DNA from: Enorma phocaeensis
GTDB lineage: Bacteria; Actinomycetota; Coriobacteriia; Coriobacteriales; Coriobacteriaceae
NCBI RefSeq assembly: GCF_016901575.1
Contig: NZ_JACJKQ010000021.1
Coordinates: forward strand, 1 to 34,789
Length of the DNA stretch: 34,789 bases
Reading direction: 5' to 3'
The notes under the pieces are model-generated. The model was not told the DNA's origin, did not search any database, and worked only from the letters and a program-made list of their open reading frames with translations. Within the stretch, counting starts at the first letter, position 1; each line of letters begins with the position of its first letter. Below are positions 30,346 to 32,684 of this stretch, piece after piece. The position numbers and the translations under genes were made by a program.

Positions 30346-30867
30346 CTAGATGCGCACAACATAGCCGTCCTTGCGCGGGGCGGCCGCGCCCTCGGGCCCA
30401 GCGGCGTATCCCAAGGCGATCGCACCCACGCCGCGCAGCGTCTCGGGCAGGCCCCACTCCCTGAGGAGCGCCTTGCCCTCAGCGCCGTCGAAGATCTCGC
30501 GCTCGCGGTGGATCCAGCAGCTGGAGAGCCCCAGGGCGTGCGCCGCGAGCATGAGGTTCTCCAGCACGCAGGAACCGTCCTCAACGAAGGTGCCGCGTCC
30601 GCCGTCGGCGAGCACGACCACGATGACCGGGGCGCCATAGTACGGGTCGGTGTCCCTGCCCATGACGGCGGCGTTGAGCCGACGCAGGCGCTCGCGGGTC
30701 TCGGGGTTGGTCACCGCCACGATTACCGGAGACTGATGGCCGCCGCCGGTGGGCGCGAAGGTGCCCGCCTCGAGCACCTGATCGAGCAGCTCCTCCGGCA
30801 CGGGCTCCGCCGTGTATGATCGCACGCTGCGACGCGTCTTGATGAGGTCGATAAGGTCGTTCGCCAT
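30346..30867 (-). CDS. Nitroreductase-family protein (FMN-dependent)
   Basis: A 173-residue nitroreductase: LIDLIKTRRSVRSYTAEPVP (FMN-phosphate-binding R-R-S-[VI]-R motif at residues 12-16), LEAGTFAPTGGGHQSPVIVA, a middle block LENLMLAAHALGLSSCWIHR, and LRGVGAIALGYAAG near the C-terminus. Such enzymes reduce nitro compounds, quinones or flavins with NAD(P)H; the physiological substrate cannot be told. ATG at 30867 follows AAAGGA; the 135 upstream codons of the open frame overlap the leader of the divergent exporter and are not family-like. It has its own 5' region with a long imperfect hairpin (30911-30941). Confidence 0.92.
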   Translation of the reverse strand: MANDLIDLIKTRRSVRSYTAEPVPEELLDQVLEAGTFAPTGGGHQSPVIVAVTNPETRERLRRLNAAVMGRDTDPYYGAPVIVVVLADGGRGTFVEDGSCVLENLMLAAHALGLSSCWIHREREIFDGAEGKALLREWGLPETLRGVGAIALGYAAGPEGAAAPRKDGYVVRI

Positions 30868-31044
30868 GATGTCATGTCCTTTCTCCCGCTGGTGCTGTCT
30901 ATATAGAAAGGCCGCCCGTCTGCCAGAGGCAGGCGAGCGGCGAAAAGATGACGGTATCCGGAAAAATCCGCTGCGATTTTCGAGACCCATTATGGCCTCG
31001 ACGTCAGCGCTGTCAAGAGCCGAGGGCGATCCGACCATTCCTGC

Positions 31045-31250
31045 TTGACATTTTCGAAGAACCCTCGACAATTTAGTCCGTCTAAAAACGTGTGGACTTT
31101 TCTGGGCGCAAGCCACCTTTTTGCCACGCAACCGAGCTTCGGTCGCGTGGTTTTTGTTTGCCGGCAATACCCGACAGCATGATCTCCTTTCCGACGGCTC
31201 GAACCGTGTAAAACCGATCCCGCGCAAAGCGGGCAGAGGAAGGAGAGGAT
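31045..31250 (+). promoter_or_regulatory. Attenuator-like leader of the EamA exporter gene
   Basis: A TTGACA -35 box (31045-31050) is followed by a weak -10 (CAATTT, about 18 bp on). The presumed transcript then contains a stem AGTCC (31075-31079)/GGACT (31094-31098), a small GGC-GCAA-GCC hairpin, a duplicated GCCAC (31112-31116, 31123-31127), a full intrinsic terminator (31124-31159), and a hairpin CCCGC-N5-GCGGG (31219-31233) just before the ribosome binding site. GTGG at 31092-31095 could pair with either GCCAC copy, allowing a switch. I do not recognise a known riboswitch class. A short GTG-started frame (31090 onward, MWTFLGASHLFATQPSFGRV ...) could instead be a leader peptide. Confidence 0.55.
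31124..31159 (+). terminator. Intrinsic terminator inside the EamA leader
   Basis: CCACGC and ACCGA (31124-31135, one bulged mismatch) pair with TCGGT and GCGTGG (31139-31150); TTTTTGTTT follows. No plus-strand gene lies upstream, so it should act as an attenuator on the exporter 90 bp downstream. Confidence 0.8.
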
Positions 31251-32213
31251 ATGAGAAACGCGATTGACCCACAGGCTCCCCTCACGAGCGCCCCGTCCTC
31301 GGGACGACGGCGGACGGTTGCGGCGCTGCAGGTCTTCGCCGGCGGCGCCTGTTATGGCGCGATGGCAACCACGTACAAGCTTGCTTACGCAGCAGGCTTT
31401 ACCTCCGCGCAGGTGGTGGCGAGCCAGGCGTGGTTCGGCTGCCTGTTCTTCGTACTTGCAACGGCTGTGAAACTGGCGCGCGGCGGGCGCTTGGTTCGCC
31501 TTACGGGCACGCAGGCGCTCAAACTCATGGGGCTTGGCGCCCTAACCTGCACCACTTCGATCCTGTACTGCTACGCCATGAGCGTGCTCCCCGCACCCGT
31601 AGCGCTCACGCTGCTGTTCCAGTTCACCTGGATGGGACTCATCTGGCAGACCATCATAACGCGGCGGGCGCCCAAGCCCCTCGAGATTGCCTCGGCCGCG
31701 GTCATCGTGTTCGGCACCGTGTTCGCAAGCGGCGTCTATAAAACAGGGCTCGCCGGCTACGACCCCGTCGCCCTCGTCTGTGCCCTCGGAGCGGCTGTGA
31801 CCTGCTCTCTGTTCGTCACGTTTTCCGGCAAGGTCAAGGTGGGCTGCTCCAACGAGCAGCGAGGCGTCATCGTGTGCCTCGGCGCGGGCATCATGTCGCT
31901 CACCGTGTGTCCCAACTACCTCGTCTCCGGCGTCGTCTTCCAGGGCATCCTGCCCTTTGCCGCCGTAGCGGGATTCTTCGGCCTCATGTGCCCGGTGCTG
32001 CTCTTCGGCCTGGGCTCCCCGCACCTGCCCGCCGGCCTCTCCACCGTCATGGCGGCCGCCGAGCTCCCCGCCGGTCTCTTTATCGCCATGATCGTGCTTG
32101 GCGAGCCCCTCGGCGCCGTGGAGTGGCTAGGCGTGGCCGTCATACTCGCTGGCGTGTGCCTTGCGCAAGTGCCCGCGCTGGGAGGAGCCCGCTCACAGAG
32201 ACCGACGGTATAG
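31251..32213 (+). CDS. EamA/DMT-superfamily exporter
   Basis: A 320-residue protein with ten hydrophobic segments arranged as two EamA repeats. The first begins VAALQVFAGGACYGAMATTY and ends in ILYCYAMSVLPAPVALTLLF; the second begins GYDPVALVCALGAAVTCSLF and ends AGLSTVMAAAELPAGLFIAM with a final helix WLGVAVILAGVCLA. Drug/metabolite transporters export amino acids, purines, drugs or other small molecules; the substrate is unknown. ATG at 31251 follows AAGGAGAGG. A regulated leader precedes it, so its substrate or precursor may control it. An ACT-domain (amino-acid binding) gene follows in the same direction. Confidence 0.9.
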   Translation: MRNAIDPQAPLTSAPSSGRRRTVAALQVFAGGACYGAMATTYKLAYAAGFTSAQVVASQAWFGCLFFVLATAVKLARGGRLVRLTGTQALKLMGLGALTCTTSILYCYAMSVLPAPVALTLLFQFTWMGLIWQTIITRRAPKPLEIASAAVIVFGTVFASGVYKTGLAGYDPVALVCALGAAVTCSLFVTFSGKVKVGCSNEQRGVIVCLGAGIMSLTVCPNYLVSGVVFQGILPFAAVAGFFGLMCPVLLFGLGSPHLPAGLSTVMAAAELPAGLFIAMIVLGEPLGAVEWLGVAVILAGVCLAQVPALGGARSQRPTV

Positions 32214-32315: not shown

Positions 32316-32684
32316 ATGGAACTGAGGAAGCTCGATCAGGATTTCTCGGTATGCAAGGTGAAGGACTACTCGCTGGTAGACCTTGGCGCAGAGTACTGCT
32401 TCATCGGCAAGACGGATGAAGAGAACTCCCTGGTATGCGCCACGAGCGATGTCCCGCCAAACGTTATTGAGCGCGACGACGGGTGGAAGGGCTTCCGCAT
32501 CCAGGGGGTGCTGGACTTCTCGCTCATCGGGATACTGACCGGCATCGCGGAGATCCTGGCAGAGAACGGTATCTCGATTTTTGCCATCTCGACCTATAAC
32601 ACCGACTACGTTCTGGTGAAGAAGGAGAGCTACCAGAGGGCGCTGGACATTCTCGGGCGCGCGGGATACGAAATCGTCGAGTGA
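32316..32684 (+). CDS. ACT-domain protein (amino-acid-sensing type)
   Basis: A 122-residue protein with two ACT-like halves: MELRKLDQDFSVCKVKDYSL, YCFIGKTDEENSLVCATSDV and RIQGVLDFSLIGILTGIAEI then LAENGISIFAISTYNTDYVL with a final LDILGRAGYEI. LDFSLIGILTGIA-x-x-L is the ligand-binding loop-helix of ACT domains. It is a stand-alone sensor without a fused enzyme, similar to CASTOR-type ACT proteins. I prefer ATG at 32316 because family members start near M-x-L-K/R-x-L; an in-frame ATG at 32277 (AAGG before it) would add 13 residues. It follows the EamA exporter by about 100 bp. Confidence 0.82.
   Translation: MELRKLDQDFSVCKVKDYSLVDLGAEYCFIGKTDEENSLVCATSDVPPNVIERDDGWKGFRIQGVLDFSLIGILTGIAEILAENGISIFAISTYNTDYVLVKKESYQRALDILGRAGYEIVE

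Follow-up and report, generated by a model that had tools for sequence, protein, structure and literature searches.

A probable antitermination ON switch in leader RNAs of efflux and nitroreductase genes of gut bacteria

The described RNAs that come closest to the element reported here are the guanidine-IV riboswitch (mepA motif, GGAM-1), an 88-105 nt RNA that senses guanidine and is associated with sugE genes (PMC7736828, PMC9788692), and Gd4v, an orphan guanidine-IV variant whose ligand is unknown (PMC9788692). As far as the consulted parts of these reports go, guanidine-IV switches genes on by preventing formation of an intrinsic terminator, precedes MATE genes and occurs in several phyla, and Gd4v is enriched in gut bacteria, accompanies MATE and GNAT genes and is coupled to a terminator; the present element shares these traits or, in the case of the ON direction, is proposed to share them. 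The literature, including the consulted parts of PMC11611296, PMC12186494, PMC11109978, PMC8632094, PMC8040213 and PMC7266159, yielded no description of this RNA, with the reservation that a motif given only in a supplement could be missed. No paper was found that joins riboswitch, nitroreductase and MATE, or riboswitch, nitroreductase and antitermination. Rfam 15 gave no match at the gathering score, and no meaningful weak match, for the window defined below and eight loci.

The window, which is the whole stretch of DNA analysed (34,789 nt, Enorma phocaeensis contig NZ_JACJKQ010000021.1), contains a gene for an EamA-type exporter. The preliminary description had placed a strong terminator between a plausible promoter and this gene, and both the promoter (TTGACA-16-GACAAT) and the terminator stem with its U tract were located. 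The parts of the leader and the genes behind it are as follows:

31045-31072, plus strand: promoter of the EamA leader, sigma-70-like, score 10/12
31084-31087, plus strand: conserved AAAA tract, expected inside the first ten nucleotides of the RNA
31090-31095, plus strand: 5' strand of helix P1, GUGUGG, the putative antiterminator strand, pairing with 31124-31129 in 16 of 16 distinct rows of alignment A1
31096-31104, plus strand: 5' side of a symmetric internal loop, A Y UUUU C Y G
31105-31114, plus strand: P2 hairpin, GGC-GCAA-GCC, with covarying pairs GC/AU/GU and CG/UG/UA
31115-31123, plus strand: 3' strand of that loop, A Y C UUUU Y G
31124-31129, plus strand: P1', CCACGC, common to the antiterminator helix P1 and the 5' arm of the terminator
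31123-31156, plus strand: intrinsic terminator hairpin and U tract
31184-31245, plus strand: second, less supported structured region, pairing the Shine-Dalgarno region
31251-32213, plus strand: EamA/DMT exporter gene (PF00892, E 7.6e-9)
32316-32684, plus strand: ACT_7 domain gene, 3' of EamA (PF13840, E 1e-20)

The core of this leader spans 31084-31129. The terminator stem (31123-31151) has a 3-nt loop and one mismatch and ends in TTTTTG (31151-31156); it was absent from the output of a simple terminator scanner, presumably because of the A.C mismatch within the stem. The 75-nt leader 31079-31153 folds with -27.8 kcal/mol (z -2.46), and 2 of 200 shuffled sequences folded equally well. A 5' GUC...GAC hairpin of the minimum-energy fold was rejected as a part of the element, being absent in L002, L009 and L012. 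A hairpin had also been proposed to abut the ribosome binding site of the exporter gene: in the minimum-energy fold CUCCUUUCC (31184-31192) does pair with GGAAGGAG (31238-31245), but the longer fold is unremarkable (z -1.32). By eye, other Coriobacteriia leaders likewise have a pyrimidine-rich complement ahead of the start codon. Because of the Shine-Dalgarno pairing and this like complement, translation of EamA may be controlled too. Sequence search detected no solved-structure relative of the EamA protein, and PADLOC gave no match.

A second copy of the element, which the preliminary description had not mentioned, lies on the opposite strand. It was found first as a weaker minus-strand match (window positions 30904-30985) of R1, a covariance model of Coriobacteriia EamA leaders, whose weaker opposite-strand matches were present in several genomes. 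Its parts are:

30989-31016, minus strand: promoter of the nitroreductase leader, TTGACA-16-CATAAT, score 11/12
30928-30987, minus strand: second element copy, 51.8 bits with model R3 (see below)
30980-30977, 30971-30968, 30958-30950 and 30940-30937, minus strand: AAAA, P1 (GCGG), P2 and P1' (CCGC) of the second copy
30906-30941, minus strand: terminator hairpin of the nitroreductase leader, with CUUUC tail
30346-30867, minus strand: nitroreductase gene (PF00881, E 6.4e-24; PDB nitroreductase 3ek3, E 2.4e-23)

The order of the parts is unchanged and the letters have covaried: AAAA, AGCGG, AUUUUUCCG, GAU-ACC-GUC, AUCUUUUCG, CCGCU and terminator. The exporter and the nitroreductase genes stand head-to-head with one copy leading each, that of the nitroreductase being diverged, and 20 distinct head-to-head pairs of elements were counted among the loci examined. 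P1 of the nitroreductase leader is not predicted by plain folding of the nascent RNA.

An EamA match was present in 28 of 60 relatives' genomes. The exact core preceded the gene at 18 of the 30 EamA loci, all of them orthologues of at least 79% identity; the loci without core belong to 11 distant relatives (at most 44% identity) and one fragment at a contig edge. The core pattern occurred at 19 sites in 18 of the 60 genomes, and at none when the pattern was reversed. R1 found matches in 49 of 396 Coriobacteriia genomes and in 20 of 65 genomes of the family, and where it matched weakly in other families, the gene that follows encodes an EamA relative of 49-65% identity. The element also extends outside Coriobacteriia, beyond what had been noted initially. 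A degenerate pattern applied to 84,980 species located at least 118 stretches, and the matches listed come from Lachnospiraceae, Oscillospirales and Bifidobacterium and from MAGs labelled Treponema, Gastranaerophilales and Massilimicrobiota. R2, a covariance model made from the 55 rows of alignment A3, matched in 54 of 247 genomes of the window's order (E <=0.05), in 26 of 392 of the order around Catenibacillus and in 19 of 295 of the order around Faecalibacterium (both at E <=0.001), the weakest matches being doubtful in each search.

An independent test was made with R3, a covariance model of 23 sequences none of which came from Coriobacteriia as judged by record title or search group; its seeds had been located with a Coriobacteriia-derived pattern, and the two target sites were outside the model. 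With E up to 10, R3 returned only 30928-30987 on the minus strand (51.8 bits) and 31076-31136 on the plus strand (39.1 bits) in the window, and with E up to 1 only these two leaders in the whole 2.36-Mb host genome (E 5.2e-12 and 6.1e-8). The preliminary description had staked its interpretation on conserved structure in homologous leaders, and such structure was found, in the core at 18 of 30 EamA loci and again by R3.

Some observations concern the habitat and the carriers of the element. Explicit bird names (gallinarum, pullorum, phasiani, faecavium, Chicken etc.) appear in at least 13 of the 80 records listed (L113-L192, raw count), and An-numbered strains, which we take to be chicken caecal isolates, account for about a dozen more of them. 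Two short human-faecal contigs filed as phages carry the element, and since one of the elements precedes a MATE gene these contigs may be bacterial DNA. A plasmid or phage cassette was considered, but no record matched over most of the query; a match in a Niallia plasmid covers only the core end and the terminator, and a core search of its stretch gave none. At L112 (127-206, minus strand, G029) an intact EamA-type leader is followed by no EamA gene in the remaining contig and by a sequence after the terminator unlike that of other leaders; it is possibly an orphan leader.

The anatomy of the element was counted on 88 distinct cores, limited to cores fitting one regular expression. The pairs of P1 are G-C, U-A/C-G/U-G, G-C and G-C, those of P2 are G-C, A-U/G-C/G-U and C-G/U-G/U-A, and the two helices together contain three non-pairing cells. 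The loop between them is symmetric, 9 by 9, with 5' A-Y-UUUU-C-Y-G opposite 5' A-Y-C-UUUU-Y-G. At three of its U.U levels all letters are U in 88 of 88 cores, at the fourth in 87. The first Y pair is C/U in 54, U/C in 28, C/C in 6 and U/U in none, the second C/U in 59, U/C in 27, U/U in 2 and C/C in none. On a neighbour-joining tree of the other A3 columns, which with about 60 letters is weak, the swaps of the Y pairs were mostly joint: 10 and 14 changes reduced to 14 joint ones, and 5 and 3 to 5, the tip-shuffle means being 25 and 15. The P2 loop is 3, 4, 5, 6 or 8 nt long (in 40, 27, 5, 15 and 1 cores, respectively), and GCGG stands in place of GTGG in 10 cores.

The upstream GTGG had been thought to allow an alternative fold; in A1, an alignment of 17 leaders, each of the 16 distinct rows shows it paired with CCACGC in the terminator 5' arm, and this fold is the conserved one. 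Some terminator-stem pairs in A1 are altered on both sides. In A3, 99.2% of the cells are paired, versus 95.1 (sd 0.6) in shuffled alignments, and the covariation is 0.249, versus 0.154 (sd 0.012); 0 of 500 shuffles were as high in either measure. This covariation signal is confined to few columns because most pairs are invariant. A3 holds 55 of 63 kept rows: L124 and L164 (chance matches by eye), L110 (contig cut) and L029, L089, L095, L145 and L148 (near-duplicates or hard to align) were excluded. Loci L113-L230 come from a pattern that requires AAAA and the loop letters, so that conservation of these letters there is circular; at the sites located by a pattern not requiring it, AAAA was present upstream in 19 of 19.

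In locus L097 both U20 and U44 are G and one A of the A tract is C, and in L307 a CAAA tract occurs with U/U at the loop positions. A decayed relative of L097 (L261, 2950-3008, minus strand, G264) lies beside a shortened EamA frame and has kept G/G at the loop positions. R2 revealed a second form of the leader, which precedes MATE genes of the two searched orders of Clostridia and, at one locus (L323, in which P1 is AUGG with CCAU), a nitroreductase gene. This form retains AAAA, P1, UUUU/UUUU and CG, has a different loop end and often a larger P2. Since it is without the C-Y-G/A-Y-C loop end, this part is not universal; if the ligand sits at the loop end, one may speculate that the two forms differ in ligand.

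In 83 of 87 homologues, 7-11 nt separate the end of the best -10 hexamer from the A tract, and the promoter score is at least 10/12 in 71 of the 87 versus 1 of 87 shuffled upstreams. Transcription starts about 7 nt after the -10, which should place AAAA within the first ten nucleotides of the RNA; the RNA start should lie 1-5 nt before AAAA. A TetR-type operator around the -10 was considered and rejected, being visible in some leaders only. The terminator stem has P1' inside its 5' arm in 86 of 88 homologues, and in 84 of the 88 a U run (5 or more T in 9) comes after such a stem. Because P1' is shared, P1 and the terminator are mutually exclusive, as expected of an intrinsic-terminator attenuator. 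The median terminator energy is -24.4 kcal/mol (86 stems) versus -6.8 for P1 and P2 alone, and P1, which has only 4-6 pairs, is predicted by plain folding of the nascent RNA in 57 of 88 cases. The terminator being far more stable, the finished RNA favours it, so that the outcome would have to be decided while the RNA is being made, by something stabilising P1. The initial characterization as an attenuator-like leader of no recognised class agrees with the conserved structure, with the exclusion of the alternative helix by the terminator and with the Rfam result.

The genes behind the element were surveyed at 148 sites among the matches listed, 132 from pattern loci and 16 from R2. These sites include near-identical species and the chance matches L124 and L164. 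The 16 R2 sites are less typical matches; others that seemed to be chance or decayed matches, some of them unread, were excluded (e.g. L293, L295, L296, L297, L302, L309, L311, L313, L315 and L262). The first recognised gene encoded a MATE protein at 50 sites, a nitroreductase at 48, EamA at 33, a YczE-like protein at 2 and an amidohydrolase at 1, which makes 134 of 148; ten of the remaining sites are cut by an end, and four have no recognised gene, two of these being probable chance matches. Operons of the type nitroreductase-MATE-MATE and MATE-Nim-like oxidoreductase were seen. Family scans of single representatives gave MatE, Nitroreductase, Pyridox_ox_2, GNAT, YitT/YczE and ACT_7; the best NCBIfam matches of the Pyridox_ox_2 representative were NimABCDEF and NimIJ (below cut-offs), and the amidohydrolase representative was 8-oxoguanine-deaminase-like (below cut-off). 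The order EamA-ACT7 occurred at 6 of the 148 sites, and ACT7 followed nitroreductase-MATE-MATE at one. An ACT_7-domain protein is also encoded 3' of MATE genes in Lachnoclostridium An118 (L179). The small ACT_7-domain protein is a candidate binder of the same compound that the leader would sense. The nitroreductase behind the element in Catenibacillus is 98.8% identical to Anaerostipes and to Treponema MAG proteins, 91% to that of a Massilimicrobiota MAG and 85% to that of Bifidobacterium phasiani (loci L117, L154, L183, L184 and L177). Identities so high suggest that leader and gene were transferred between phyla, or that MAGs are contaminated.

A covarying structure upstream of several non-homologous genes of one theme, as found here, is what is expected of a riboswitch. 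We consider it fairly probable that the element is a cis-acting, termination-controlling leader RNA that acts as an ON switch and binds a toxic small molecule directly; in short, an antitermination switch, probably a riboswitch. Without signal the terminator would form and transcription would stop. The signal would stabilise P1 and the loop as the RNA emerges, the terminator arm would be held back, and RNA polymerase would read into the detoxification genes. The proposed signal is a toxic small molecule bound by the RNA itself, which the gene products would expel or modify; this is suggested by the gene set, which comprises MATE, EamA and nitroreductase genes and sometimes genes for a Nim-like oxidoreductase, GNAT or amidohydrolase. 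Direct sensing is favoured because unrelated genes of one theme are led by the element in at least two phyla and no shared regulator gene was seen.

The same switch could be worked by a protein: an RNA-binding protein set by a drug or metabolite would bind the U-rich loop and stabilise P1. The anatomy resembles known antiterminator targets, a protein might bind at the symmetric U-rich loop, and the high sequence conservation would fit. We nevertheless regard such antitermination as unlikely, since no regulator gene accompanies the element among the recognised neighbours of the 148 sites among the matches listed, and the element occurs in at least two phyla and in the apparently transferred nitroreductase cassettes (proteins of 98.8% identity in Anaerostipes and the Treponema MAG).

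Control at the DNA level, in which the conserved block would serve as an operator close to the start site and the hairpin would be an ordinary terminator or pause, is very improbable. The block does adjoin the promoter, at about +1 to +50, and short inverted repeats surround the -10 in some leaders (L004), but these repeats are not conserved, the variation tracks the RNA helices with loop lengths being variable, and changes in P1 are accompanied by changes in the terminator arm (GCGG/CCGC, and AUGG/CCAU in L323).

Still less to be expected is that the element is a variant of guanidine-IV or Gd4v, riboswitches that control MATE and GNAT genes through a terminator. The gut habitat (of Gd4v), the MATE and GNAT genes and the ON direction by antitermination would speak for it in the consulted parts of the reports (PMC9788692, PMC7736828). 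According to the same parts, those RNAs consist of two hairpins and a pseudoknot, with the conserved letters in and around the pseudoknot, whereas here the 5' hairpin has 3 bp and a variable loop, the conserved letters belong to the internal loop, and the terminator arm is itself the pairing partner of the 5' strand. A pseudoknot of that type was looked for as a mark of membership: both the length and the letters of the P2 loop vary, and the conserved letters are elsewhere. Neither sugE nor transaminase, which were not used as queries, was among the recognised first genes of the 148 sites among the matches listed.

The least credible alternative is leader-peptide attenuation, raised already in the preliminary description, in which an antibiotic-stalled ribosome on a GTG GAC TTT TCY GG frame would open the terminator: some variable positions are indeed third codon positions (GAY, TCY, GGR), but P2 pairing and the paired Y swaps account for these, the P2 loop lengths of 3, 4, 5, 6 and 8 disrupt the frame (the block spacing varying by non-multiples of three), the GTG start is replaced by GCGG in 10 of 88 cores, and no ribosome binding site is seen between the expected start and GTG.

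The riboswitch reading can be made more specific, although only tentatively, and we doubt this version more than we believe it: the element would be a minimal, ligand-stabilised triple helix, in an undescribed riboswitch class that responds to a toxic compound frequent in vertebrate, especially bird, guts. In ENE elements (MALAT1, viral RNAs) a U-rich internal loop between two helices forms a U.A-U triple helix with an A-rich tract. The prerequisites of such a structure are present here as well: the loop between P1 and P2 is rich in U, and there is an A tract. The nascent 5'-terminal AAAA would form a U.A-U triple helix by docking into the UUUU/UUUU loop, lock P1 and so block the terminator; the inducing compound would perhaps be a nitro- or N-heteroaromatic one, and the loop-end variants could mark different ligands. 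The idea derives from the equal number of A letters and U.U levels (four each), from the ENE architecture and from the one three-way change in L097; the CAAA with U/U in L307 argues against a strict U/A/U rule.

If the riboswitch reading is true, drug-efflux and nitroreductase genes of common gut bacteria are controlled by an RNA of a new class, which acts within the first 80 nt of the transcript and whose short symmetric loop and 5' A tract constitute a new, very small switch fold. The gene set would then suggest that some toxic compound, as yet unknown, matters in the gut, and the search for it could start directly from the RNA.

Compared with the known systems, the element differs from guanidine-IV by that RNA's two hairpins, its kissing-loop pseudoknot and the placement of one hairpin in the terminator stem, and from Gd4v by the guanidine-IV-like two-hairpin pseudoknot and by the transaminase gene that more than half of the Gd4v RNAs precede; no nitroreductase or EamA is named for Gd4v in the consulted main text (PMC9788692). 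The conserved parts of both are without counterpart here, a distinction drawn from the consulted published descriptions. According to partial accounts, the element resembles ykkC subtype 2d, an orphan with unknown ligand, in leading EamA-annotated transporters, and the yjdF riboswitch, an RNA that senses many azaaromatics. Both ykkC subtype 2d and yjdF are larger and have different structures. ENE elements are eukaryotic 3'-end stability elements, unlike the present RNA, which carries its A tract at the 5' end and whose triplex is hypothetical. Attenuating leaders are a known kind of control element, and the present RNA, as judged from its sequence, looks like an undescribed class of them.
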